DNA of 64,000 bases from Gammaproteobacteria bacterium (GTDB lineage Bacteria; Pseudomonadota; Gammaproteobacteria; Pseudomonadales; JADFDG01). The notes under the pieces were generated by a model that saw nothing but the letters and a program-made list of their open reading frames with translations, made no database searches and had not been told where the DNA came from. The DNA is taken from assembly GCA_018262975.1 (NCBI GenBank), contig JADFDG010000019.1:1-64000 (forward strand), given 5' to 3'. Position 1 is the stretch's first letter. Every line of letters starts with the position of its first letter. The position numbers were made by a program, and so were the translations under genes. This document shows, piece by piece, positions 51,126 to 64,000 of the stretch.

Positions 51126-51212
51126 GCCCGGGTGGCGAAACGGGTAGACGCAAGGGACTTAAAATCCCCCGCCCCAACGGGCATGCCGGTTCGAGTCCGG
51201 CCCCGGGCACCA
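51126..51212 (+). tRNA. tRNA-Leu (anticodon UAA)
   Basis: GCCCGGG/CCCGGGC acceptor, anticodon loop CTTAAAA, long variable arm, T-loop GTTCGAGTC, encoded CCA to 51212. Last gene of the conserved core; the gene content changes right after it, and tRNA-Leu 3' ends are common integration targets. Confidence 0.95.
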
Positions 51213-51382: not shown

Positions 51383-52252
51383 TCAAGCGGAACTCGTCCC
51401 GCCCGAGGCGGTGAAGCTCTCTTGAATCAAGCGTTCAAGAATCGCCGTTTGACTCACGCCCTGCTGGGTGGCCAGCCAGTCCAGCTGATCCTTTGCGGAC
51501 TTGGTCAGCGGCAGGTGATACGGCTTCTTCGCCTTGCCGGAGTCGCGGAACTTCTTCTGGCTCCACGTCTTCTTCATCGTGTCCAGGAACAGTCGCTTCT
51601 CGGCCGCGTTGCCCTCAGAGAGACGGTCCAAGGCTATCAGTATCGCCGCATAGCGCTCCTTGGGGGTGACCGGCATCGGGATGAATGATGACTTGTAGCC
51701 CTTCACGATGTAGGTCCAGGCCCAGTCAAGCTGTACCTCGTCCTTGGGGTTCAGCCATTTCGTCTCCTTGTCTGGAGTGCGCATCCGACCCCAATACAGT
51801 TTCTGCTGCTCAAGAAACTGCTCTTTCGCCGCCGGCGTGGCGTTCCAGCAATCAATGGCCAGGATGATCGCATCCCGCCTCCTGGTGCTTGCCACGGCCA
51901 TGAGGGGTTGGATCTGGAAGTAGTTGTTTGGGTTGGTGGCTAGGCGTTCGAGTTGCAGGTAAAGCCAGACGATCAGGCGGTCGTCATCCTTGTCGATCCA
52001 GCGGAACGCGCTCTCCGAAACAATCTGGTCCCTATGGGCGTTCAGGATCTCCTGAATAGCTTCGGGCGGGTTTGTATGGCCCGCGATCAAGCCGGCGATC
52101 GTCTGAATGACCTGGCTCGGATTAAGGGACTCGTCGCTCTGGAGCTGGACACCCTTGCTCATCAGGAAGCGCCAGAGCCACCGGATATCCCGGTCCTTGA
52201 AATGCTGCAACTCCTTCGGGAGTGCTGCCGGGAGGTTTGCGTGCACGGCCAT
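51383..52252 (-). CDS. Uncharacterised protein with ribbon-helix-helix-like C-terminus
   Basis: A 289-residue soluble protein. Residues about 245-280 (LTKSAKDQLDWLATQQGVSQTAILERLIQ) read like a ribbon-helix-helix or short helical DNA-binding segment. The preceding 240 residues are helical with no recognised family. The start is the ATG after GGAG; a GTG one codon upstream is also possible. It points towards tRNA-Leu and is the first gene of the accessory island. Function unknown; a DNA-binding regulator is the best guess. Confidence 0.6.
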   Translation of the reverse strand: MAVHANLPAALPKELQHFKDRDIRWLWRFLMSKGVQLQSDESLNPSQVIQTIAGLIAGHTNPPEAIQEILNAHRDQIVSESAFRWIDKDDDRLIVWLYLQLERLATNPNNYFQIQPLMAVASTRRRDAIILAIDCWNATPAAKEQFLEQQKLYWGRMRTPDKETKWLNPKDEVQLDWAWTYIVKGYKSSFIPMPVTPKERYAAILIALDRLSEGNAAEKRLFLDTMKKTWSQKKFRDSGKAKKPYHLPLTKSAKDQLDWLATQQGVSQTAILERLIQESFTASGGTSSA

Positions 52253-52255
52253 CAC

Positions 52256-52801
52256 TTTGTCTCCACTATAGAACCGTCACTTGGTCGTGTGACTAGGTAG
52301 GGGAGACATTGTGCATTCAGGCGACTCGCCCGTCAACACACTAGTCAGGTTTATGATGCATTTACGTAGTCTTTCTGTCGGATTGTTCGTAGTGATTTAT
52401 GTCGTGTTTTCAGTGGACGGTACCTGCTGAGCCGAGGAAACAGGCCGATTTTACGGCGGAGACCCATCCGAACTGGACCGACTGTTCTCACTATACCTCG
52501 CTTTTCGGCTGATGGCGGTTGCCATCTGTCGGCCCATGCTCCTGCCCTGGCTGGACTGATGACGGAGCGTTGCGCTGCCCAGTCGCAGGGGCGGCGTGGT
52601 CGTGCCGATGGGCGTAATGGTAGCGGGCGGCCGGCCTGGCAGACTTCCTCCTCCGCGCGAATGCAGGGCAACCCCAAGCGCATGGCTAGGTGCGACAAAC
52701 GCGCCGCGGATGTGGCGTCTGCCCGACGTCCGGGTGGCGGCATATGTGGCAAGAGATGGCTCACTGTGCTGAACCATGGGGTGAGTGCCCAAGGGGAGGC
52801 T
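52256..52801. other. Non-coding stretch of the island
   Basis: 546 bp without a supported gene. Several frames stay open by composition only. No RNA gene, terminator or strong repeat was recognised. The AT-rich middle (about 52330-52420) contrasts with both sides. Confidence 0.5.
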
Positions 52802-54096
52802 ATGGGAATGCCGGCCGTGAAGCAGCCAATATCAGTGACCCGGGACGAGCTATATGAATTGGTCTGGTCTTCGCCCATGGCGGAGGTCGCAGCAAAATTC
52901 GGGGTTTCCGGTAGTTATCTGACGCGGATCTGCAAGGCCCTCAATGTGCCCCAGCCGAGGGCAGGGCACTGGGCGAAGGTGGCTGCGGGCCAGGCGTCTC
53001 CACCCCGCTGCCCCTTGCCTGCAGCTCGTCCAGGCGATCCGCAGGTCTGGCAGCGGGGCGCGTGGCCACCGCAGGAGGTCCGGGTAGATCCGGTCCCTCC
53101 TGACCCGCGGGCTCGACGCAAAGGGTTGCCGAAGGGGCCGCTGCCCGGTCGCCATCCGCTGTTAGCCGGCGTAAAGGAGCTCCTTGATGAGGCCCGCAGG
53201 AGCTACCGCGCCGACTATCAAAAGCCCCGTACCGGCAAACTCGTCGACGTCGTCGTATCGAAGTCGGGTATCGATGCCGCCCTGCAGCTGGCCAACCAGA
53301 TCTACCTCGCCCTGGAGGCCAGGGGTCATCGGGTCGTGCTGGCGCCGAGGGGCTGGGGGGTATCGCGCCCCGAGTTTGATGAACGGGAAAAGGCGGGGCG
53401 CAGGCAATTCGCGCCGGACCTATGGGGACCGTCACGGTTGACCACGGCTTACCTCGGTTCTGTTCCGATGGGCCTGACCATTGTCGAGCTCTCGGAGCGA
53501 GCGGAGTTCAGTACGTCGATGGCAGGTACGTGCGGCTAACCGACCTGACCCCGGCGCAGCGACGGATGAATGGGCCTGGGACCTGGCGGCAAATGGAAGA
53601 GTTCCCCAGTGGGCGCTTCATGTTGGTGGCCTATTGCCCCGAGCAGGCTGCGGGTTGGCGGGAAGAGTGGAGGGAGTCTCATCAGGGCGAACTACTTAAG
53701 AAGATTCCCGCCATTGTCCGAAGTCTGGAGCGGGCAGCTCCAAAGGTTGCCCAAGCGATGAGGGCTGGGCGTGAAAAGGAGGCGATACGGAAACAGGCCG
53801 AGGACGCCGCCCATGCAAGGTGGTTGGCAGAGGAAGACTGCCGCAGGCGGGAGCTTGCAAGGCGAACAAGCCGGGAAGACCTTCTTCGCATCATTTCGCT
53901 GTGGTCGGAATCCCGCACTGTCGAGATATTCCTTTCTGAGATCGAGAGGGGGCTCGCTGAGGCTGATCTGAACGATGATGAGCGCCGGCAATTGCTTGGT
54001 CGATTGCAAGCGGCTCGTGACCTGGTATCGGGTAGCAGTGCGCTTCAGCTATTCGCAGAATGGCACCTTTCGAGGGATCTGCAATTTGGGCCGTGA
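52802..54096 (+). pseudogene. Frameshifted HTH-containing hypothetical protein
   Basis: Two frames join near 53506. The 5' part (from MGMPAVKQPISVTRDELYELVW) has an HTH-like segment MAEVAAKFGVSGSYLTRICKAL, followed by a GHWAKVAAG motif typical of a known but uncharacterised family. It ends in a new frame at residue about 240. The 3' part resumes in the -1 frame with VQYVDGRYVRLTDLTPAQRR and an acidic/basic coiled tail. One missing base after GCGGAG would restore a single protein of about 431 residues. No slippery heptamer is seen, so a mutation is more likely than programmed frameshifting. Confidence 0.65.
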
Positions 54097-54207: not shown

Positions 54208-54396
54208 ATGAAAATCATTCGTCTCGCTGCCGTCAAGGAAGCTACTGGTCTCGGCCGGTCATCAATCTACAAATTCATGGATGAAGGTACCTTTCCAAAA
54301 TCGATTCGACTGACCGGAAAGTCTGTTGGCTGGATTGATCAGGAGATCGAGGCCTGGGTTCAGGAGCGCATTGCAGAACGTGACAAGAAGTCTTGA
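54208..54396 (+). CDS. AlpA-family excisionase-like regulator
   Basis: A 62-residue MerR-like DNA-binding protein. Sequence IIRLAAVKEATGLGRSSIYKFMDEGTFPKSIRL...GWIDQEIEAWV is the classic AlpA pattern. Start chosen after GAGGAG seven bases upstream; an in-frame ATG earlier lacks a site. AlpA proteins act as excisionases or activators in integrated elements, so this marks the island as mobile or formerly mobile. Confidence 0.88.
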   Translation: MKIIRLAAVKEATGLGRSSIYKFMDEGTFPKSIRLTGKSVGWIDQEIEAWVQERIAERDKKS

Positions 54397-54819
54397 TTGC
54401 ATCAGATAGATTTGCCAATGAGATTTACCCGTTCTATATCGCCATTAATCAATCCTGACCATGCCCAGAGGCCCGGCTAGACGCTGGCCCTCTGGGCGGC
54501 CGGAAGGTCGGGTCGCCTCAGATAACTTCCGGTCGTATAACCAACTAAAATCGAAACCTGTAGGGTGTGAATTGAACCAGGAATGACGCCGAAATATCGC
54601 GTCTCTCCTGGAAATTCGGTCGGATACCTATCGTGGCCAGTGAGCGAAGCCTTGGATTCTCGAATTATGGATTGTTTACAATTCCCATTTTTCATGTAGT
54701 CCACAGATGCAATCGGGACGATCCGAAGGAATCGGCCATGAGATATTTGTATGCATGGAGAGTAAATATTTAGGATGAAGACAGTTCCTATGGCGAATAC
54801 ACGCCAGGAGGAACAAGAC
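54397..54819. other. AT-richer non-coding stretch before the HUH Rep gene, with an inverted repeat
   Basis: No convincing gene. It contains the inverted repeat GCCCAGAGG (54463-54471) and CCTCTGGGC (54489-54497) with 17 bases between. Such a dyad upstream of a rolling-circle initiator might belong to a replication origin or be a terminator for AlpA. A short minus-strand frame here has no support. Confidence 0.45.
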
Positions 54820-55971
54820 ATGATTAGCTGCAAGACTCAGCGACTGGGTATTCATATCCCTCTGCAGGAATACCGCCGTCAAGTGAGCCCGGATCTGCCC
54901 ATGCTCTGGCGCATGGCTGGATTCAAGCCCGTCAGTCAGTCCCGCGCACTGCGGGATATCGAGGCGTTTGTCGACAAAGTATTGTCGTCAAGCGAGCCCG
55001 CGATCATCGAGGGTTGCCATGCATCTCCGGTGTTCGGTGTGTCCGTAACCCGGATCGGCCGTGAGCTCCTGGAGACATTGCCACTGCTGGGGCTGTTTGA
55101 CAGTGAACACGATTACACCGAGAAGCCGTACGCCTTCCTTGATGCCTGCTGGCTAATCGAGAGCATGTATCGAATCGATCTCTCTCGGGTTTGGGCTGAT
55201 CCCCATGCCCAACTCGCCAGCTATTCCGATGCGTTGAACGGCGTGGTCGACAAGATCCGCCTTTCGGCGCGACAGGAATGGTTCCGTCGCGGGCCAAGTG
55301 ATCGACGGTACGAGGCGGGTTACCGAGCCAACAAAATCCGCCAGTACGTCTCCGGGCTTCTCCAACGGCACGCGAAGTTGCTGCTGGTTCGTGTCGATCT
55401 CGGCTACGCACGCTTTGCACGGCAATCCCTCACCATAGGCAGGCTGCGAGATGATCTTCGGGAGTTTCTGTTCCTGAAGGAACGCGGACATCCGGCCTTC
55501 CAGCACCTGGTTGGTTATATCTGGGCGATCGAGGATGGCCACCGCAAGGGGCCGCATGTTCACCTGCTGCTGATCTACAACGGCGCTGCGGTCTGGCAGG
55601 ACGTCAATATCGGCCGTACGGTTTGCGGGCTTTGGGAGAACCGTGTGACAGGCGGTGTTGGTACATCGCGCAATTGCAATGCAAAAAAGGAGGAGTACGA
55701 AGAGCTCGGGATCGGGTTGATTGAGCGTCATGACCCGGACGCTTGCGAGCGGGCGGTCTTCTTCGCCACTTACCTGGCAAAAGATCCCCATGGCCCTGAT
55801 ATCGAAGATTCCCAGTACGTGCGCATGAAGCCAGCCGGCACTGATGTGTTCGGTACCGGGGAGCAGGGCATGGATGAGTCCCGTTCTGGGCGTCCGCGCA
55901 TTCTTCCGCAAACGTGGACAGCCGAAGACATGCATAACGTCCGTTGGCCTAACAGTAGGTGGTGCCGCTGA
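54820..55971 (+). CDS. HUH rolling-circle replication initiator, inovirus Gp2 type
   Basis: A 383-residue protein. The HUH motif is GPHVHLLL with His246 and His248, and a tyrosine motif YLAK (Tyr318, Lys321) follows in the correct order. The layout (AlpA-like gene upstream, HUH protein, ATPase downstream) matches inovirus Gp2-type proteins in integrated elements. Start chosen at the ATG with AGGAGGA seven bases before it; two earlier ATGs lack a site. It should nick one DNA strand at an origin and attach covalently. Not seen: an intact virion structural set, so it is not a whole inovirus. Confidence 0.75.
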   Translation: MISCKTQRLGIHIPLQEYRRQVSPDLPMLWRMAGFKPVSQSRALRDIEAFVDKVLSSSEPAIIEGCHASPVFGVSVTRIGRELLETLPLLGLFDSEHDYTEKPYAFLDACWLIESMYRIDLSRVWADPHAQLASYSDALNGVVDKIRLSARQEWFRRGPSDRRYEAGYRANKIRQYVSGLLQRHAKLLLVRVDLGYARFARQSLTIGRLRDDLREFLFLKERGHPAFQHLVGYIWAIEDGHRKGPHVHLLLIYNGAAVWQDVNIGRTVCGLWENRVTGGVGTSRNCNAKKEEYEELGIGLIERHDPDACERAVFFATYLAKDPHGPDIEDSQYVRMKPAGTDVFGTGEQGMDESRSGRPRILPQTWTAEDMHNVRWPNSRWCR

Positions 55972-56018
55972 TTTCTTACGGCGCTCTCCAATGTCATGAA
56001 CAACGTTGGGGAGCGCTC

Positions 56019-57269
56019 ATGGATACATATGGAAGTCAGGAGTCTGCAAAAGACAACCCGTTGAAGGTGGCTCGGTCATTGCTCGGTGCAGCGGCCTTCC
56101 GGCTGGCGACCGAGCTTGAACCCGGGCATCCGGACTACCTTGCGATTTCACGTTATTACTCACCGCTATGCATCTCCCTGGGAAAGACCATCGACCGCCA
56201 GCATGGCGTGGACTGGGTGCCGGCGGATGAAGGGAACGGGTTTTTCCTCGTGCTGGGCTCTTCTGGGTCCGGCAAGACGGAGACCTTGAAGACTATCGGC
56301 AGGCAACTCGCCTGGTGTGGGTATCCAGTTCTGGTGCTCGACTTTCATGGTGACGTCCAGTTCCCGGGATTGAACTCGGTGCTCATGTCGTCAGGGGCGG
56401 TGAGTCAAACGGGGGTCAATCCGATGGACCTCGACTGTTTTCTTGATGATCGCGTTGGCCTGTACGAGCAGCGTGCCCGGCTTGTCGAGATGATCCAGCG
56501 GGCCGTGCCCACGCTCGGGGCCCGCCAGAAGATCCTGCTGCTGGATGCCATTGCCGAGGCATACGAACGGTCAGGATTCCGGGATGATGATCCGGGTACT
56601 TGGGGAAACCAGCCGCCGTCCTTGAGTGACGTCAGCCGGATACTCGACCGCTGGCGCACCGATCCCAAAATGGCCGGTGTCCGTCAATCGCTGCCGGGCT
56701 GCATTGCCGCCATCCGCCATGAGTTCGATCATCCCGTGTTCAAGAAGCGGGAGCATCTGACGCTGGAAGGCTTGCTTCGGTGGAATATCCGCGTGGACCT
56801 GAGCACCCTGACGGATGGCGTTCGCTACATCGTCGCCGAGACGCTGCTGCGCAAGGTATTCCGGGCGCTGCAGATCAAGGGTCCGATCCCGGTAAAACCT
56901 GCGAACGATACCGAGCGGTTCCGGCTTTTCATCCTGATCGACGAGGCCAAGATCCTAAGCCTTGGGCGCGGGGACGCCGAGTCCAGCAGCCATATCCTGA
57001 ACATCCTCGCGACGGAGGGTCGCAAGTTCGGTATTGGCCTGGTCATTGCCTCCCAGTTGAGCAGCCACTTTGGCGCGGAGCTGAAGGCCAATGCTGGCAC
57101 CTGGCTGGTGCTGAAGCCGATGTTCGAGGAAGAGGCCAGGAAGAATGCACCCAACGTGTCAGTACGCCCCGCTGATCTCATGCAATTGGTAGGCAAGGGG
57201 GATGGCTACCTGCGGGATCGTTCCCATCCGGTGGGGCGGCGGATTCAGGTGGTGCAGACGTCGGGTTAG
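56019..57269 (+). CDS. HerA/FtsK-like P-loop ATPase
   Basis: A 416-residue ATPase. Walker A GSSGSGKT (residues 80-87), Walker B region LFILIDEAKIL (about 302-312), and an ILATEGRKFGIGLVIASQ segment typical of HerA-like DNA pumps and conjugation ATPases. No transmembrane helix was recognised. Start taken at the ATG after GGGGAG; a GTG 60 bases upstream overlaps the Rep gene. The gap to the Rep stop is 47 bp, so the two are probably one operon acting on the nicked DNA. Family recognised by motifs, not by search. Confidence 0.75.
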   Translation: MDTYGSQESAKDNPLKVARSLLGAAAFRLATELEPGHPDYLAISRYYSPLCISLGKTIDRQHGVDWVPADEGNGFFLVLGSSGSGKTETLKTIGRQLAWCGYPVLVLDFHGDVQFPGLNSVLMSSGAVSQTGVNPMDLDCFLDDRVGLYEQRARLVEMIQRAVPTLGARQKILLLDAIAEAYERSGFRDDDPGTWGNQPPSLSDVSRILDRWRTDPKMAGVRQSLPGCIAAIRHEFDHPVFKKREHLTLEGLLRWNIRVDLSTLTDGVRYIVAETLLRKVFRALQIKGPIPVKPANDTERFRLFILIDEAKILSLGRGDAESSSHILNILATEGRKFGIGLVIASQLSSHFGAELKANAGTWLVLKPMFEEEARKNAPNVSVRPADLMQLVGKGDGYLRDRSHPVGRRIQVVQTSG

Positions 57270-57276
57270 TACGCGT

Positions 57277-58596
57277 TCAACGCTCGGCACTCAACCCCAG
57301 TTCCTCCCACATCCAGCCGAAGTCATACGCAGGCATGCCTCGCTGCGTGGCGCCTTGCGCCGTACTGCGCTCAAGGTCCTTGAGCCAGGCAATGGTGCGC
57401 TCGCGGCCGGCCTTGGTTTTCACCGCCTGGGCCGGCGTCTTGTTGCCGAGCGCCGGGATGGGCATGCGCATGGTTTCGCGGTAGTGGCGATCGAGAATGG
57501 CGAGGATCATGTCGTGCTGCTCCTCCGGCGACGGCATCGCTGCCGGGGCGGCACCGCCACCGGGCACCGGCATGGCATTGAGGTCCATTTCCTCGTAGCG
57601 GGTCAGGGCAGGGCCGACCTTGTCGCCCAGGGCCTCCTGCAGCATCAGCAATCCGCGCTCCATGCGTTGACGGGAGTTCGTCGTGAACACCAGGTGCTTG
57701 CGCTCGAGCACGGCATCGCCGAGCAGTGTGCCGGCCGGGCTCACCGATTGGGACTTGCGCCGTGACTTCGGTTTGCCTTCCGGTGCTTCACCGCTGGCGA
57801 GCCAGACCCAGCGCAGGTGGTGATCGGATGCCGGCTCCCAGCCGGGGAGGGTGTTCATGATGGCGGCGATCTCGTCGGCACGGGCCAGCAGCGGCAGCCG
57901 GCTCTTGCTCAGGAGGAGTTCATCGCCATCGCGATTGACGACCTGCGGGCGTGGCGCGAACTTGCCGGCGTACTGCCACGCGATCCAGGCGGCCGTGCTC
58001 AGCGAGGGCATCGGGTCGATACTGCTGTCTGCCTTGCGCAGGCTGGCATAGGCCTTGAGCAGGCCCTTGGTCTCATCGGGGCGAATGGGCAGGACACCGC
58101 CGGCCAGCACGTACTCCTCGTGCACGCGCAGCACCCGGGCGCAGATCACGTCCCAGCGCGAGAGGCACTGGCTGCCGGACTTCTCGTGGACGAATACCGG
58201 CTCTTCGGTCTTGCCCTTTGGTACGTCCAAAGGGCGCAGGGTCAGGCCGGTACCCGGCTGGACATCAGTGACCTCGTACAGGCGCAGCCGGCTGTCGATG
58301 AGCGCCTCCAGATACTTGCGGGCGTAGCCGTTTTCCCGCCAGCCGGCGCGCTTCAGGTAGTCGGCCGCCATGCAGGTGCCGTCGGCGCGGCGCCGGGTGG
58401 CGAAGTCCTCGAAGACAGTGGCGATGAACTCGCCGGACTGGTCGCCGACGATGTCGCTGATATCGGCAGGGTCGACGTCCAGGGCCTCGGCGGCGTGTTC
58501 CATATGCCCCCGGATCACCTCCCCGAAGAGCGACTTCCACTCGGGCCGGGTGGCGTATTTCTGCATGTTGGTGATCAGGGAACCGGTCTTGCTCAT
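57277..58596 (-). CDS. Uncharacterised 439-residue protein of the island
   Basis: A soluble protein starting MSKTGSLITNMQKYATRPEW, with no recognised catalytic motif. The last part RHYRETMRMPIPALGNKTPAQAVKTKAGRERTIAWL resembles the toxin-binding tail of MbcA/ParS/Xre antitoxins (short segments of the form PALGxxTPxxA..GR), but the rest does not match. Ribosome site is weak. It is divergent from the AbiEi-type gene by 156 bp and convergent with the ATPase. Function unknown. Confidence 0.65.
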   Translation of the reverse strand: MSKTGSLITNMQKYATRPEWKSLFGEVIRGHMEHAAEALDVDPADISDIVGDQSGEFIATVFEDFATRRRADGTCMAADYLKRAGWRENGYARKYLEALIDSRLRLYEVTDVQPGTGLTLRPLDVPKGKTEEPVFVHEKSGSQCLSRWDVICARVLRVHEEYVLAGGVLPIRPDETKGLLKAYASLRKADSSIDPMPSLSTAAWIAWQYAGKFAPRPQVVNRDGDELLLSKSRLPLLARADEIAAIMNTLPGWEPASDHHLRWVWLASGEAPEGKPKSRRKSQSVSPAGTLLGDAVLERKHLVFTTNSRQRMERGLLMLQEALGDKVGPALTRYEEMDLNAMPVPGGGAAPAAMPSPEEQHDMILAILDRHYRETMRMPIPALGNKTPAQAVKTKAGRERTIAWLKDLERSTAQGATQRGMPAYDFGWMWEELGLSAER

Positions 58597-58710
58597 GGCG
58601 GGAACTTGGGGGAGGTGGGCGGAGGGGAGCATTTCACCAGAGTCCGCAGGGGAGGGGGCAGATTTACTCCGGCGCATCCTGGTAGCCGACTGGCAATCCT
58701 GGTTGCAGGG

Positions 58711-58752: not shown

Positions 58753-59364
58753 ATGAGCCGTCTTGCCGAGAGCATCCTGTCTGCTGCCCGGGCGATGCCC
58801 GAGGGCGGTCTGTTGTCCCCCAAGGAGTTCCTGCATCTGGGGTCGCGGGCTGCCATCGACAAAACCTTGTCCCGGCTGACCCAGGAGGGGAAGTTGCTGC
58901 GGGTGAGTCGTGGTGCGTATGTCGCGCCCCGCGAGGGCCGATTTGGTTCCCGTCCGCCGTCTACCGAATCCGTGATGCAGGCCATCGAGGCCAGCTGCGG
59001 TGAAACGGTCGTGGCCAGCGGCGCGGCTGAAGCCAGCGCGCTGGGCCTGACCACGCAGGTGCCGATCCGTGAGGTCTCTCTCACCTCCGGTGCATCCCGA
59101 ACCTTGCATCTCGGCACCCGGTGCGTGGAGCTCAAACATGGCAACCGTTGGCAACTGCTGCTGGGCAAGCGCCCTGCGGGCAAAGTGATCCGTGCGCTCT
59201 CTTGGCTGGGGCCGGAGGCTGCGCCGGCGGCGCTTAAGCAACTGCGCGCCAAATTGCCCGATTCCGAATGGGAGGCCCTGCGCGGCGCGCGGGCCGCTTT
59301 GCCGAGCTGGATGGCCAAAGTGGTCAGCGAGAACCTGCAAAGTGAGGCAGGGGCGCATGGCTGA
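58753..59364 (+). CDS. AbiEi-type antitoxin (type IV toxin-antitoxin)
   Basis: A 203-residue protein with the DUF6088/AbiEi N-terminal winged helix (FLHLGSRAAIDKTLSRLTQEGKLLRVSRGAYVAP). AbiEi antitoxins repress their own promoter and counteract the AbiEii nucleotidyltransferase. AAGGAG is nine bases before the start. The stop overlaps the ATG of the toxin remnant (ATGGCTGA), as in intact abiE operons. The partner is broken, so this is an orphan antitoxin. Confidence 0.8.
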   Translation: MSRLAESILSAARAMPEGGLLSPKEFLHLGSRAAIDKTLSRLTQEGKLLRVSRGAYVAPREGRFGSRPPSTESVMQAIEASCGETVVASGAAEASALGLTTQVPIREVSLTSGASRTLHLGTRCVELKHGNRWQLLLGKRPAGKVIRALSWLGPEAAPAALKQLRAKLPDSEWEALRGARAALPSWMAKVVSENLQSEAGAHG

Positions 59365-59485
59365 TTCCTGGTTTTCGCTCCGCCGGGAAGATCAGGTTGA
59401 AGCTCTGGAATTTGCCGCGGCTCGTAGTGGGCGGCCTGCGCGCTTGCTCGAATAGGACATCCGGGTGGTCTGGGTGCTCCGCCAT
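59357..59485 (+). pseudogene. Decayed AbiEii nucleotidyltransferase toxin remnant
   Basis: The frame begins MADSWFSLRREDQVEALEFAA, which is the usual AbiEii start, overlapping the antitoxin by eight bases. It meets TAG after about 32 codons, where the family has LLEKD followed by VVW. Reading on gives DIRVVWVLRH before a second stop, and the remaining roughly 250 residues are missing. The K-to-stop change plus the deletion leaves no active toxin. Confidence 0.75.
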
Positions 59486-59615
59486 TGACATCGAGGCGGC
59501 GGGCTGGCTGTCATTTGGGGCCGCCATTCGCCTGACCTATCCGAAATGGCTGGCTGGAAGGACGGCCATCATCCCGGGCTCAGCCCAGCAAACACAAGGC
59601 GTCCGGGTTGCCAGG

Positions 59616-59652
59616 TGTCGGGTTTTTGCAGACCCTGAATGTCGGGTTTTTG
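59616..59652. repeat. Two 13-bp direct repeats ahead of the second AbiEi-like gene
   Basis: TGTCGGGTTTTTG occurs at 59616-59628 and 59640-59652, a spacing of 24 bp, ending 16 bp before the ATG. Direct repeats at this distance from a self-regulated antitoxin suggest binding sites; this is inference. Confidence 0.6.
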
Positions 59653-59668
59653 TAGGGGGGGGACGCCA

Positions 59669-60079
59669 ATGACCAAGAAGACTTTGGCTGACCGGATACA
59701 GATCCGGTTGGCCCGCAAAAAGGACAACGTGTTCCTGACCCGAGAATTCATGGATCTCGGCGGGGAGGACCAGGTACTGCGCGCCTTGCGCACCCTCGTG
59801 CGTCAGGGGCGCCTGGTGAAGCTGGGCTACGGCGTCTACGGCCGTGCCGCCACATCCCGCCTGTCCGGGCAGCCGGTGCTCTTCAACCCCAATGGCTTCG
59901 CCGGGGCGGCCCGGGAGGCGCTGACCAAGCTGGGCGTGGCTTGGGAGCCCACCGAGGCCGAGCAGGCCTACAACGAGGGCCGTTCGACGCAGGTGCCTGT
60001 AAATACGGTGGTTAGGGTCAAGGGTCGTTTCTCCCGGCGCTTGAGTGACGGTGCCTCGGAGCTAGTCCTGGAGCGTTAA
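59669..60079 (+). CDS. Second AbiEi-like (DUF6088) protein without toxin
   Basis: A 136-residue protein with DUF6088-type start LADRIQIRLARKKDNVFLTREF and the family segment LRALRTLVRQGRLVKLGYGVYGR. Preceded by a GGGGGGG run that can serve as ribosome site. No nucleotidyltransferase follows it, so this is another orphan. It may repress other promoters in the island or represent a remnant pair. Confidence 0.75.
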   Translation: MTKKTLADRIQIRLARKKDNVFLTREFMDLGGEDQVLRALRTLVRQGRLVKLGYGVYGRAATSRLSGQPVLFNPNGFAGAAREALTKLGVAWEPTEAEQAYNEGRSTQVPVNTVVRVKGRFSRRLSDGASELVLER

Positions 60080-60209: not shown

Positions 60210-60488
60210 ATGGCGACTACGGCCATGGTCCACGTCCGGGTGGACGAGCAAGTCAAAGAGCAGGCAACTGAAGCGCTGGCAGCGATGGGGTTGTCTGTTT
60301 CCGATGCGGTACGGGTGTTCTTGATCCGGGTTGCGGCGGAGAAACAGTTGCCGTTTGCAATCAAGGTTCCCAATGCCGAAACGCGGTCTGCCATGGCCGA
60401 GGCTGACGGCATGGTGCGCGCGCATCGCGCCCGCTTTGACTCTGCAGGCGAACTGCTGAATGACCTCGAAAAAAACAGCCGCAAGTAA
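60210..60488 (+). CDS. RelB/DinJ-family antitoxin
   Basis: A 92-residue ribbon-helix-helix antitoxin (MVHVRVDEQVKEQATEALAAMGLSVSDAVRVFLIRV). Binds DNA and neutralises the downstream ribonuclease. Ribosome site AGAGAGG precedes. Overlaps the toxin start by 29 bases, so translation is coupled. Confidence 0.92.
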   Translation: MATTAMVHVRVDEQVKEQATEALAAMGLSVSDAVRVFLIRVAAEKQLPFAIKVPNAETRSAMAEADGMVRAHRARFDSAGELLNDLEKNSRK

Positions 60489-60789
60489 GCGGGCGCCGTT
60501 ACCGCGCGCATCCGATTACACCAAGGTGTTCCTGAAGGATTGGGAGCGCCTGTCTCGGTCCGGTCGTTACGACATGAACCGGTTGAAGGAGGCAATGACG
60601 CTGATCGTTGCCAATGATGCGCCGCTAGGGGCGGAATGGAAGGATCACGAGCTGACCGGTGACTGGGCCGATCATCGTGAGTGCCATATCGGCGGCGACT
60701 TTCTGCTTGTCTACAGGGTCGACGACAGTGGTAAGCATGGCGTTGTCGTGTTTGTCAGAACGGGTACACATGCTGAATTGTTTGAGTGA
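60460..60789 (+). CDS. YafQ-family mRNA interferase toxin
   Basis: A 109-residue RelE-superfamily toxin of the YafQ branch, which cleaves mRNA at the ribosome. Catalytic-type residues are kept in DHELTGDWADHRECHIGGDFLLVYRV and the C-terminal RTGTHAELF. The intact pair suggests it is functional. Convergent with jetD with 18 bp between stops. Confidence 0.9.
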   Translation: MTSKKTAASKRAPLPRASDYTKVFLKDWERLSRSGRYDMNRLKEAMTLIVANDAPLGAEWKDHELTGDWADHRECHIGGDFLLVYRVDDSGKHGVVVFVRTGTHAELFE

Positions 60790-60807: not shown

Positions 60808-61974
60808 CTATTCGTAGGGATTGGGCGCGCTATTGCGCCATTCGCGCAGCGCGCGATGGACACGGTCGACTGGCAGGTATTCCTGTTCAAGTCGCCCCCT
60901 TTCCGCAGTGACCAGGACGCGATAGAGACTCTCCTCAGGCGGGAATAGATTGGCCGGCGCGTCCGGCCCTGCAATTGCGGGCTCTACCACAGCACGTTCT
61001 TTCAACGACTGAAATGTGGCCTCGTCCATCAAGAGCGCCGTCAGCCCGGGCCGCCATGTCCTTGCTCTCGCAAGCATGGCCATTCCCCAACTGTCCAGGT
61101 CACCCCAGTAGGCGATGCGTTTCCCGTCGAAGGCTGCACCAGCCAACCATTCGAGATTCAGGCCTGCGCCCAAAATTGCCACCGTACCCTCAAGTCGTGG
61201 CAATTGGTGTACGCATTTCTCATTTTCGACAACCAGGATATTGGGGGCGGGCAGTGCGGTTTTGGCAAGGTCTGTGGCCCGTACCCGCTGACGTGCGAAG
61301 GGCAACAGATCCTCATCAAGTGGAACGACCAGTAGCCAGTGTTCGCCTTCCTCAACGCAGCCGAGGAATTGAGTTAGCCCCTGTGGGCTGCATTGCCCTT
61401 CAAAGCGAGCATCAAGAAATGCTTTGAGTAGCGGCTGGTTTCTCTCGAGAAACTTGGTGTCCACACCGGGATGGTCGGCGCCTACTGCGCGTAACGGGCG
61501 ACCCATGCCGCATCCTGGCTCCAGCCGAGTGGCAAGCCAGGCCATGGCAACCACATCGTCTTCAGCCTGTGCTTCATGCAAGGACAGGCGTCGAACGATT
61601 ACCCGATGAAACTGAACATCCACTGCAGCGATGAGACGCTTCAGTCGCTGAGCGCTCGCCACGGTGTCACTGTCCGCGGTTGCAAACGCGAGCTCATCAA
61701 GAGTGCTCAGTTCCCATGCGACGGGAATGTCCAAAGGCTCTGCGCCGGATTGGTATCTTACAGATTCCCAATGCACGTGGCCGATAGAGACGTTACGCCA
61801 TGCCGACAGGTGGGCGCGGAGTTTCGCAGGGTCATTCCGGAAGGTATCGGGCGAAGGTTTCCCAATATTGATTCGAAGCGGCAAGGCGTCTTCTCCGAGA
61901 AGAAACGCTTCGCGGTGGTCGGCTGATTGCCACTTGCGTCTCAGATCCTTGGCGATCTCTTCCGGATTCTTCAT
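60808..61974 (-). CDS. jetD: Wadjet subunit JetD (toprim nuclease)
   Basis: A 388-residue protein. DUF3322 N-terminal half, then DUF2220 with the toprim motif YWGDLDSWGMAML (around residues 288-300, acidic metal ligands D-D). In type I Wadjet JetD cuts plasmid DNA loaded by the JetABC SMC machine. Start at the ATG of MKNPEEIAKDLRRKW, overlapping the jetC stop by four bases (ATGA). Last gene of the minus-strand operon. Confidence 0.88.
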   Translation of the reverse strand: MKNPEEIAKDLRRKWQSADHREAFLLGEDALPLRINIGKPSPDTFRNDPAKLRAHLSAWRNVSIGHVHWESVRYQSGAEPLDIPVAWELSTLDELAFATADSDTVASAQRLKRLIAAVDVQFHRVIVRRLSLHEAQAEDDVVAMAWLATRLEPGCGMGRPLRAVGADHPGVDTKFLERNQPLLKAFLDARFEGQCSPQGLTQFLGCVEEGEHWLLVVPLDEDLLPFARQRVRATDLAKTALPAPNILVVENEKCVHQLPRLEGTVAILGAGLNLEWLAGAAFDGKRIAYWGDLDSWGMAMLARARTWRPGLTALLMDEATFQSLKERAVVEPAIAGPDAPANLFPPEESLYRVLVTAERGRLEQEYLPVDRVHRALREWRNSAPNPYE

Positions 61975-64000
61975 GGGGCCGCAGTCTCCTGACGAGCCAA
62001 AACGTGCTTGTCGAGTTCCTCCCAGGTGATTGAGCTCATGCCTGAGCAGGCACCTCGGCGGTGCACCAGAATGGCTGAGCGTGTATGGCTTCGCAGCAGC
62101 CTGAGTTCCTTGTTGGGTGTGACAAACAGCGGGTGCAGGCCAAACTCGGAAAGAGCGGAAATAATGCGCCCGGCGACGGTGTGAGAGCTCCGGGAAAAAG
62201 CCTCGTCGAGGACAACAGTGCCAAACAGCGGCCGTGAACTCCCCGGTGGGCACAGCGCGTAACTCAGTGACGCCGTCAGGACGTGGCTGGCGATGATTTC
62301 TTTTTCACCTCCACTGCCGCCCTTGGAATCGGTCCTGGTTTCGATGATTGCCCGTGAATCTCTGTCGATCACGGACACGGAGAACGACAATCTGTACCGG
62401 GGGTCAAGCATGGCCAAGCTTCCGGACGCCCGCTTGCGATCGGCAGCATCGCGCAGAAGTGAAACTACCTGCTGTAGCGCTTTGTAGTGGCTCTCGCCAT
62501 TGTCTTCCTTGAATCTGGCAGACCGAAGATTCTTGAGGGCCAGTTGCAGGTCATCAAGGCTGGCGTGTCTGATCCGCTTAGGGTCAAGCCGCAGAAAGTG
62601 TCCGGCGGAAAAGTCGACTCGGCGGAGCGTGTTATTCAGGTCATCAATTCTTTCTTCGATGATGCTGACTTCATTGTCGATATCGCTAAGGAGTTGTGTT
62701 ACCCCTTGGTCGGACGACTGGTTCAGGTAGTCCTGGAAGCGCTGCTGCTTGGCAGGCAGGTCCTCCTGCTCAAGGATGCGAAGACGGTCAAGGTACGCCG
62801 GCAGGTCGCCCAGATCGGTACCTGCCTCGGCCAGGGAACCCCTGTCCTCGCGCTTGGCGGCGCCCATATCGCTGACGATGCGACGCTCGCATGCGCTTAG
62901 GTCGGTACGCAGCTTCGAGATTTTTGTCTCGAGGTCGTTGATGCAAGAGCGCTCGATATCGGGAAGGTCGGACAGGCTTACCCCATCAAGGTTTGGCTCG
63001 TGGCCAACCAAGTGCTGCCGTTGTTCGGCGTCCAGCCCGATCCCGACACGCTTGTGCGCTCGTTCCCGGTCGTCCTGTGCTTGCTGCAACGCATTGGCTT
63101 GGGTTCCCAGGGATACCTGAATCTCCCGAAGCGAAGCCTGAATTCCCTTCGCATTCCGCTCTGCGTCTTGCCAAGCAGCGTGGGCCTTCCCGGAGTCGGA
63201 GGAGGGATCTGTCAGTCTGGCAAGGCGGTCTTCAAGCTCACGAACCCTGGTGTTGGCGGATTCAAGGTCAATGTCCTGAAACTGCAGGGTCGCCAGATGA
63301 TCCAGCAGGCTGAGTTTGTGCGCTATCTCGTCAAGTTGGTTCCGGCTGGTACGGAGTGCGTCCTGGATTTCCCTCAGGTCTCTTTCAGTAGCGGCCAGAG
63401 CATCCTGCAACTGGACAAGGCGGTCCTTGTTGTCGAACCCGGTGCACCAATCCTGGCTGAGCGGTACCTGATCGAGCTTGTCAAAGAATCCGCGTTGGCC
63501 AGACATCAAGCCTTCAACGGTCATCGCGAACGGCAGGTTATGGAGATCGTCGCTGGAGGCGACGCAGTGCCGATCATTTTCGGCAAGCAGGTGCTTTACC
63601 GTCTCCCGATAGGGGTGATTTGCGAAATCCAGCTTGCGGGTGTAGCCATCTTCCTTAAAGCGAGGCATCCCGACTGGCGTCACAACCTCCAGCAGCCTGA
63701 CGTGCATTTGGTTGTCCCGCTTGTTAACCCATCGCAATGCCTCTTTAAGGCGATTTGATGGGACCAGTACCCTGAGCCTATGACCGCCGATCGCGCGCTC
63801 GATGGCGCCGCGCCAGGAGTTCTCAGTGGGCTTGACCTGAATGAGCTCGGCAACGAAGGGCACGTCTCCTTCGTTAAGGTTGAGGTGTTCGGCGAGCTTT
63901 ACCCTGAAGTTGTGGTACTTGGGAGAGATGTTGGAGTTCGGTCTGGCGCTGGATTCTCTGATTTCGTCCAGATACTGATCTCGCTGCTCGCGAAGCAAGT
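61971..64000 (-). CDS. jetC: Wadjet subunit JetC (MukB/SMC-like), C-terminal part
   Basis: 676 or more residues are visible and the N-terminal part runs off the right edge. The segment FVAELIQVKPTENSWRGAIERAIGG is hinge-like, then coiled coils, then the ABC signature GGSGGEKEII and Walker B VVLDEAFSRSS. The product is the SMC motor of type I Wadjet; jetA and jetB should lie upstream, outside the window. About 1100 residues are expected in full. Confidence 0.88.
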   Translation of the reverse strand, partial: LLREQRDQYLDEIRESSARPNSNISPKYHNFRVKLAEHLNLNEGDVPFVAELIQVKPTENSWRGAIERAIGGHRLRVLVPSNRLKEALRWVNKRDNQMHVRLLEVVTPVGMPRFKEDGYTRKLDFANHPYRETVKHLLAENDRHCVASSDDLHNLPFAMTVEGLMSGQRGFFDKLDQVPLSQDWCTGFDNKDRLVQLQDALAATERDLREIQDALRTSRNQLDEIAHKLSLLDHLATLQFQDIDLESANTRVRELEDRLARLTDPSSDSGKAHAAWQDAERNAKGIQASLREIQVSLGTQANALQQAQDDRERAHKRVGIGLDAEQRQHLVGHEPNLDGVSLSDLPDIERSCINDLETKISKLRTDLSACERRIVSDMGAAKREDRGSLAEAGTDLGDLPAYLDRLRILEQEDLPAKQQRFQDYLNQSSDQGVTQLLSDIDNEVSIIEERIDDLNNTLRRVDFSAGHFLRLDPKRIRHASLDDLQLALKNLRSARFKEDNGESHYKALQQVVSLLRDAADRKRASGSLAMLDPRYRLSFSVSVIDRDSRAIIETRTDSKGGSGGEKEIIASHVLTASLSYALCPPGSSRPLFGTVVLDEAFSRSSHTVAGRIISALSEFGLHPLFVTPNKELRLLRSHTRSAILVHRRGACSGMSSITWEELDKHVLARQETAAP

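Follow-up and report, generated by a model that had tools for sequence, protein, structure and literature searches.

An HUH replication initiator and a HerA-type ATPase form a conserved module with AlpA in integrative genomic islands

We report that a 64,000-nucleotide stretch of gammaproteobacterial DNA (assembly GCA_018262975.1, contig JADFDG010000019.1, positions 1 to 64,000; referred to as the window) carries in a row genes for AlpA, a replication initiator of the HUH class (Rep) and a HerA/FtsK-superfamily ATPase, and that this trio is a genuine conserved module of mobile elements, beyond a chance neighbourhood. AlpA and Rep adjoin the ATPase in seven of 11 loci with short ATPase frames, in one genome Rep and ATPase are fused, and the trio resides in large integrative islands with an integrase, recombination genes and defence cargo. 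No description of AlpA with HerA, or of HerA beside or fused to an HUH endonuclease, was found in the open-access literature, consulted mostly as titles and listings, and our data suggest a previously undescribed nickase-plus-pump machine.

The AlpA, Rep and ATPase genes and their conservation

The core of the locus consists of:

54208..54396, plus strand: AlpA, excisionase/regulator family (Pfam PF05930, 75.8 bits, cut-off 21)
54463..54497, no strand: hairpin, candidate Rep nicking site or origin (putative role; fold compared with shuffles)
54820..55971, plus strand: HUH Rep, YagK/YfjJ (inovirus Gp2-like) family, 383 amino acids (aa) from the best start (PF11726, motifs, model)
56019..57269, plus strand: HerA/FtsK-superfamily ATPase, DndH/DptH-type motor domain, 416 aa from the best start (PF01935, profile, motifs)

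The listed Rep frame (54775-55971, 398 aa) reached PF11726 (YagK_YfjJ_C) with 33.2 bits (cut-off 25.8), and its start was re-assigned to the ATG at 54820, which is preceded by a strong Shine-Dalgarno sequence, AGGAGG. It carries the motifs KGPHVHLLLIY (H261, H263) and TYLAKD (Y333; numbering of the 398-aa frame), and the HVH and the catalytic Tyr are invariant in all 14 aligned Reps. An AlphaFold model (pLDDT 76, pTM 0.74) was best matched in a viral structure library by 'Inovirus Gp2' (E 3e-8), with phage GpA matched as well. The ATPase frame, listed from a GTG (55959-57269), reached the HerA central domain PF01935 with 26.4 bits (cut-off 23.2); with its start re-assigned to the ATG at 56019 (Shine-Dalgarno GGGGAG upstream), a 47-nt gap between Rep and ATPase replaces the overlapping frames. 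Profile comparison gave DptH (7es4_A, E 1.7e-18) as the nearest solved relative, and the invariant residues are Walker A GSSGSGKT, Walker B D328 and E329, R355 and Q366; a sensor glutamine and a preceding arginine finger are described for the HerA/FtsK clade in the available text of PMC10853773. The ATPase model was too poor for a structure search (pLDDT 59.6). The original prediction, made from the letters of the window, had placed AlpA, a dyad-containing gap, a Rep with HVH and YLAK and a HerA-like ATPase in one compact unit, and all three families score above their cut-offs.

AlpA has the ribosome site GAGGAG and is separated from the listed Rep frame by 378 nt. The predicted dyad at 54463-54497 in this gap (a 9-bp stem, a C.C mismatch, 5 bp and the loop TAGAC) is real, since the best 45-nt fold reaches -29.1 kcal/mol, where shuffles average -15.9 (sd 2.8) and none of 200 folded as low; a repeat of the test gave 0/100. 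The 9-bp arm by itself was matched in 4.6% of shuffles, and a second dyad at 54500-54532 (7 bp) is at chance level, as 53% of shuffles give 7-bp stems. Hairpins also occur in the AlpA-Rep gaps of a second trio genome (G331) and of Pseudomonas nitroreducens plasmid DNA (0/100 shuffles each), and six further gaps have weaker ones (shuffle frequencies 0.01-0.07). In two elements, L005 and L052, hairpins upstream of Rep have very different stems and an identical 6-nt loop, CCCAAA, a possible nick-site signature. The AlpA-Rep gap hairpins could also act as terminators.

Conservation was studied in the genome itself, 145 relatives, 369 genomes of the class and 390 of the order (overlapping sets), and by an additional profile search of 398 genomes of the phylum (E 1e-10). 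Loci were counted from the class and order searches at E 1e-8 or better in open frames below 900 aa, and the trio was found in the window, G331, G940, G1095 (twice), G883 and G959, the last two being related genomes with one common arrangement. Of the two findings that the original prediction named as counting against it, a trio that is not conserved and a catalytic Tyr mutated in relatives, neither was borne out. In G331 a single 859-aa frame carries both PF11726 (45.8 bits) and PF01935 (37.4 bits), with AlpA (53.9 bits) in front and dynamin-like genes behind, and in G940 the order Rep-AlpA-HerA stands behind the same uvrC-pgsA-tRNA-Leu stretch as in the window. The Reps of G940 and of both G1095 loci reach PF11726 and their AlpAs PF05930; the Rep and the AlpA-like gene of G883 lie below the Pfam cut-offs and were assigned by phmmer (E 1e-4 and 3e-11). 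Six of the trio loci (G959 is outside this count) have one Rep each with HUH and Tyr intact. The other four of the 11 loci (G008, G112, G668 and G164; for the last two approximately 1.5 kb of flank was examined) have the ATPase without the trio, and in G008 and G112 (same genus) it is an orphan with transposase-like frames upstream. The remaining class and order matches have DndH-sized frames (1702-1865 aa), and the phylum search gave three other genomes (G668 again, G719 and G531), in none of which a Rep was seen.

Tandem Reps recur (L101 8867-10273, L102 5190-8958, L057 4764-8792). In one of the G1095 loci (G1095b) and in G883, one Rep keeps HUH and Tyr and an additional Rep has lost both, which suggests a catalytic/non-catalytic pair.

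Searched against a phage collection of 50,697 records, Rep matched nothing and the ATPase matched a single record, distantly. Among viral contigs, the window ATPase had no relative, Rep one and the ATPase of the other G1095 locus (G1095a) none; the ATPase profile gave two distant relatives, of 527 and 637 aa, on the IMG/VR contigs L063 and L064, in phage-like or plasmid-like settings with no Rep recognised in the listed frames. Plasmid records include nine with Rep relatives and 49 with ATPase relatives, and none with both among the matches listed. Cyanobacterial plasmid ATPases were rejected as kin of the trio, their neighbourhood not being Rep-linked and being one that we take to be MADS-like.

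The islands that carry the trio

The G1095a island spans 36,637 bp and is flanked by direct repeats (24 bp) of the 3' end of tRNA-Leu, with a tyrosine integrase adjoining the tRNA, and holds type I restriction, helicase, RecT-like, YqaJ and DUF932 genes (the last three named after the query sequences, in our own usage and not from Pfam); YqaJ is present in the G940 and G1095 islands. Among the 10 large G1095a proteins scanned, no capsid or conjugation family was present. Defence cargo comprises type I restriction or dynamin-like genes in the relatives, and Wadjet and AbiE-like genes in the window. The element had been predicted to be small, which the 36.6 kb of the one island with both ends found does not bear out, and a free-standing small plasmid or satellite is not supported, as the trio sits in large integrated islands. 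The predicted difference from an inovirus holds: no coat or assembly genes occur next to the trio among the scanned window proteins, and an inovirus was rejected on this ground.

In the window the island follows a conserved chromosomal stretch of uvrC, pgsA (both identified from their translations), tRNA-Gly, tRNA-Cys and tRNA-Leu(TAA), and the GC content falls from approximately 0.64-0.73 to 0.51-0.60 over the larger part of the island as far as 57 kb. At 73,967, inside or near the island, the contig (C10) stops. The border and the genes flanking the trio are:

51126..51212, plus strand: tRNA-Leu(TAA), final member of the Gly/Cys/Leu tRNA cluster that follows uvrC and pgsA, left border of the low-GC island (ARAGORN)
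51383..52255, minus strand: 290-aa protein of unknown function (phmmer, G1095a relative, E 9e-77)
57277..58683, minus strand: ~468-aa protein of unknown function (phmmer, E 1e-275 to a copy on contig C2 of the same genome)
58753..60079, plus strand: cargo, AbiEi/DUF6088 at 58753-59364 and a second DUF6088 at 59639-60079 (PF19570, PADLOC AbiEi)
60460..60789, plus strand: cargo, RelE/YafQ-type toxin gene (TIGR02385, 82.6 bits)
60808-62253, minus strand: cargo, Wadjet type I JetD (PADLOC, E 2e-146)
61971 to C10:65288, past the window end, minus strand: cargo, Wadjet type I JetC (PADLOC, E 4e-270)

JetB and JetA follow JetC outside the window, and the Wadjet type I set (JetD, C, B, A) is complete from 60808 to C10:67459, adjoining the AbiE-like and RelE-like genes. 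Relatives of the 51383..52255 protein are present in seven of 21 neighbourhoods (L041-L061); they are often divergently oriented and near AlpA/Rep (L100, L049, L058). The C-terminus is weakly similar to a RepA regulator; the protein is perhaps a copy-number regulator. Upstream of AlpA, two frames overlap (52706-53539 and 53422-54096) and possibly represent a single frameshifted gene. The 57277-58683 protein and L006 8317-9648 are near-copies in two islands of one genome, each adjoining Rep genes. Contigs C2, C25 and C26 of the same genome hold additional genes of this kind (Rep, integrase or YqaJ); pieces with YqaJ on all three were compared in a search for the right end of the island, and none could be joined to C10.

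Proposed function and alternatives

We favour, with modest confidence, the reading that the trio is the replication/processing module of an I55-like island with AlpA and a Gp2-like protein behind tRNA-Leu(TAA), in which motor and nickase work together. AlpA would promote excision of the island; Rep would nick a hairpin origin, with that at 54463-54497 as the best candidate, via Tyr333 and would remain attached to the 5' end after the nick; and the HerA-type ATPase, together with Rep, would form a ring motor driving DNA, either to replicate the excised circle by the rolling-circle route or to load it into the transfer or packaging path of a helper. The role of a 'replication/mobilisation core', as first predicted, is plausible. 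These data do not distinguish a replication motor from a transfer pump. In favour of this reading are the trio or its fusion in other genomes, the G1095a island with its integrase and repeats, the hairpins in other AlpA-Rep gaps and the gene set of the I55 islands. Sister elements (L051, L052, L054, L060 and L085) also carry a different motor-like gene, DUF3987, near AlpA/Rep, which suggests that HerA may fill the slot of another ATPase.

Several observations weigh against the favoured reading. Most AlpA/Gp2 elements found here are without HerA, so HerA is not essential to them. In G883 the Rep adjoining HerA is the one without HUH and Tyr, the intact Rep being on the opposite side. Comparison of the Rep-upstream hairpins gave no common sequence, at most a similar architecture. 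HerA/FtsK motors are mainly known as double-strand pumps, so single-strand displacement fits poorly. The Rep model matched parvovirus NS1 (Z 7.6) and Helitron (Z 7.5) among solved structures, with no solved protein at Foldseek E < 0.001; since Thg1 enzymes score the same as HUH nucleases, the fold match alone is not decisive, and it is the ordered motifs together with PF11726 that decide the predicted HUH assignment. Finally, no integrase, YqaJ, RecT-like or DUF932 gene was found on the window contig, and no tRNA-Leu repeat of at least 14 nt up to 73,967; the window copy could be a leftover, or the assembly may lack its far end.

The strongest alternative, though an unlikely one, is that the ATPase is not a replication motor but a coupling-type one, passing Rep-bound DNA to a helper's channel for phage packaging or conjugation. 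FtsK-like proteins stand beside rolling-circle relaxases in Gram-positive integrative and conjugative elements (ICEs) and in those of actinomycetes (AICEs), and the ATPase weakly resembles TrwB-type coupling proteins. In the same direction, I55-type islands are without transfer genes of their own and one was moved by a jumbo phage, as reported in the available text of PMC12595487. Against a transfer pump, the family tables contain no membrane-anchoring domain (no search was aimed at one), and there are no mating-pair or conjugation genes among the window and G1095a island proteins scanned, on which ground an AICE or ICE was also rejected.

The relationship of the ATPase to DndH bears on whether Rep and HerA could instead form an anti-invader system in a defence island, like nuclease-plus-HerA pairs and DndH, which we regard as improbable. 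The ATPase is most closely related (54-57% identity) to the C-terminal motor of L022, a DndH-type protein of a betaproteobacterial metagenome-assembled genome, whose operon matches SspF, SspG and DndH models; PADLOC gives matches to DndH and mad8, and the neighbouring genes are defence genes. On the other side, what is conserved next to the ATPase is a replication initiator, together with AlpA, and not a restriction nuclease, and the G1095 pair is accompanied by integrase and recombination genes. Moreover, in a tree of 22 rows, the window ATPase pairs with the L022 C-terminus (support 98/97) in a group of seven (91/91) whose other members are Rep-linked or orphan ATPases. In approximately unbiased (AU) tests chosen after the tree had been seen, a single clade of all 10 DndH-like rows, nine of them typed by frame length alone (986-1865 aa), was rejected (p 0.0004), and a grouping of the five Rep-linked rows that excludes the DndH row was rejected less strongly (p 0.026), the G883 branch being very long. 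With the DndH motor nested among Rep-linked ones, defence looks derived.

Repeated acquisition of HerA/FtsK motors by DndH ('HerA/FtsK capture') has been proposed in PMC10853773, where the sources named in the available text are D5-helicase operons, Orc/CDC6 operons, cellular FtsK, DndE fusions and eukaryotic elements; neither HUH nor 'rolling circle' occurs in its main text. The Rep-linked ATPases are a likely source of the motor domain of the DndH-type L022 protein, fitting that proposal and giving at least one DndH motor the mobile-element origin that it predicts. More tentatively than the favoured reading, we put forward that HUH Rep and HerA may be a distinct two-part, sometimes one-chain, machine, in which the nickase would load a ring pump that replicates the excised satellite-like island and threads it into a helper path, and from which DndH-type defence proteins would have taken at least one motor. 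Transport of an AlpA/Gp2 island by a jumbo phage has been on record only since 2025 (PMC12595487, available text); for the replication, excision and loading into helper phages of islands without transfer genes, a nickase physically joined to a HerA pump is a concrete, testable machine.

That the ATPase maintains or segregates the excised circle is somewhat less probable again than a role in defence. Short, distant relatives of HerA follow parA-parB on an Azospirillum plasmid (L122) and are found near these genes on a Nostoc plasmid (L040), but they are approximately 30% identical, parA/parB was not recognised beside the trio loci (no search was aimed at them), and the nickase fusion argues for action at the nick. 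Least probable is that the window genes are a decaying leftover among cargo assembled by chance, as the missing integrase and attachment repeat and the orphan ATPases of G008 and G112 might indicate, since the AlpA, Rep and ATPase frames are all intact with good ribosome sites and the trio recurs in most of the short-frame loci.

Comparison with known systems

The DndFGH/SspFGH systems have an ATPase of the same family as the window, whereas the window ATPase stands alone (Rep-fused in G331) as a motor domain without the N-terminal DndH domains. No DndF/G-like gene is present in the PADLOC or Pfam tables for the scanned window proteins, and assignment to a DndFGH defence system was rejected.

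The I55 family (Pseudomonas fluorescens SBW25; PMC12595487), for which the available text gives IntY, AlpA, a Gp2-like protein, YqaJ, RadC and defence genes, shares AlpA, the Gp2-like protein, the defence cargo and the absence of transfer genes with the window, and YqaJ, tyrosine integrase and tRNA repeat with the trio-bearing G1095a. In contrast to I55, the window has a HerA-type ATPase coupled to the Gp2-like Rep, is inserted at tRNA-Leu and not at tmRNA, and has no integrase or YqaJ found on its contig; HerA is not mentioned in the main text of PMC12595487. Because the contig ends inside or near the island, and the integrase and repeat were not found, we do not class the window copy as a complete member of the I55 type.

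Among relatives of the Rep, L051 is the closest, and its gene order is AlpA-DUF3987-Rep. In CP4-57-type islands (AlpA-YfjI-YfjJ), which share AlpA and a YfjJ-family Rep with the window, DUF3987 lies upstream of Rep, as in E. coli CP4-57, whereas the HerA ATPase of the window lies downstream. AICEs and ICEs of the ICEBs1/Tn916 type combine, like the trio, a rolling-circle initiator or relaxase, an Xis-like factor and an FtsK-superfamily motor; the trio differs in having no mating-pair genes, other Rep and motor families and Gram-negative hosts. Finally, adeno-associated virus (AAV) Rep, Helitron and TraI are HUH proteins with built-in motors and, like the G331 fusion, have a nickase and an ATP-driven DNA motor in one chain; their motors are superfamily 1 or 3 (SF1 or SF3) helicases, whereas that of G331 is of the HerA/FtsK type.

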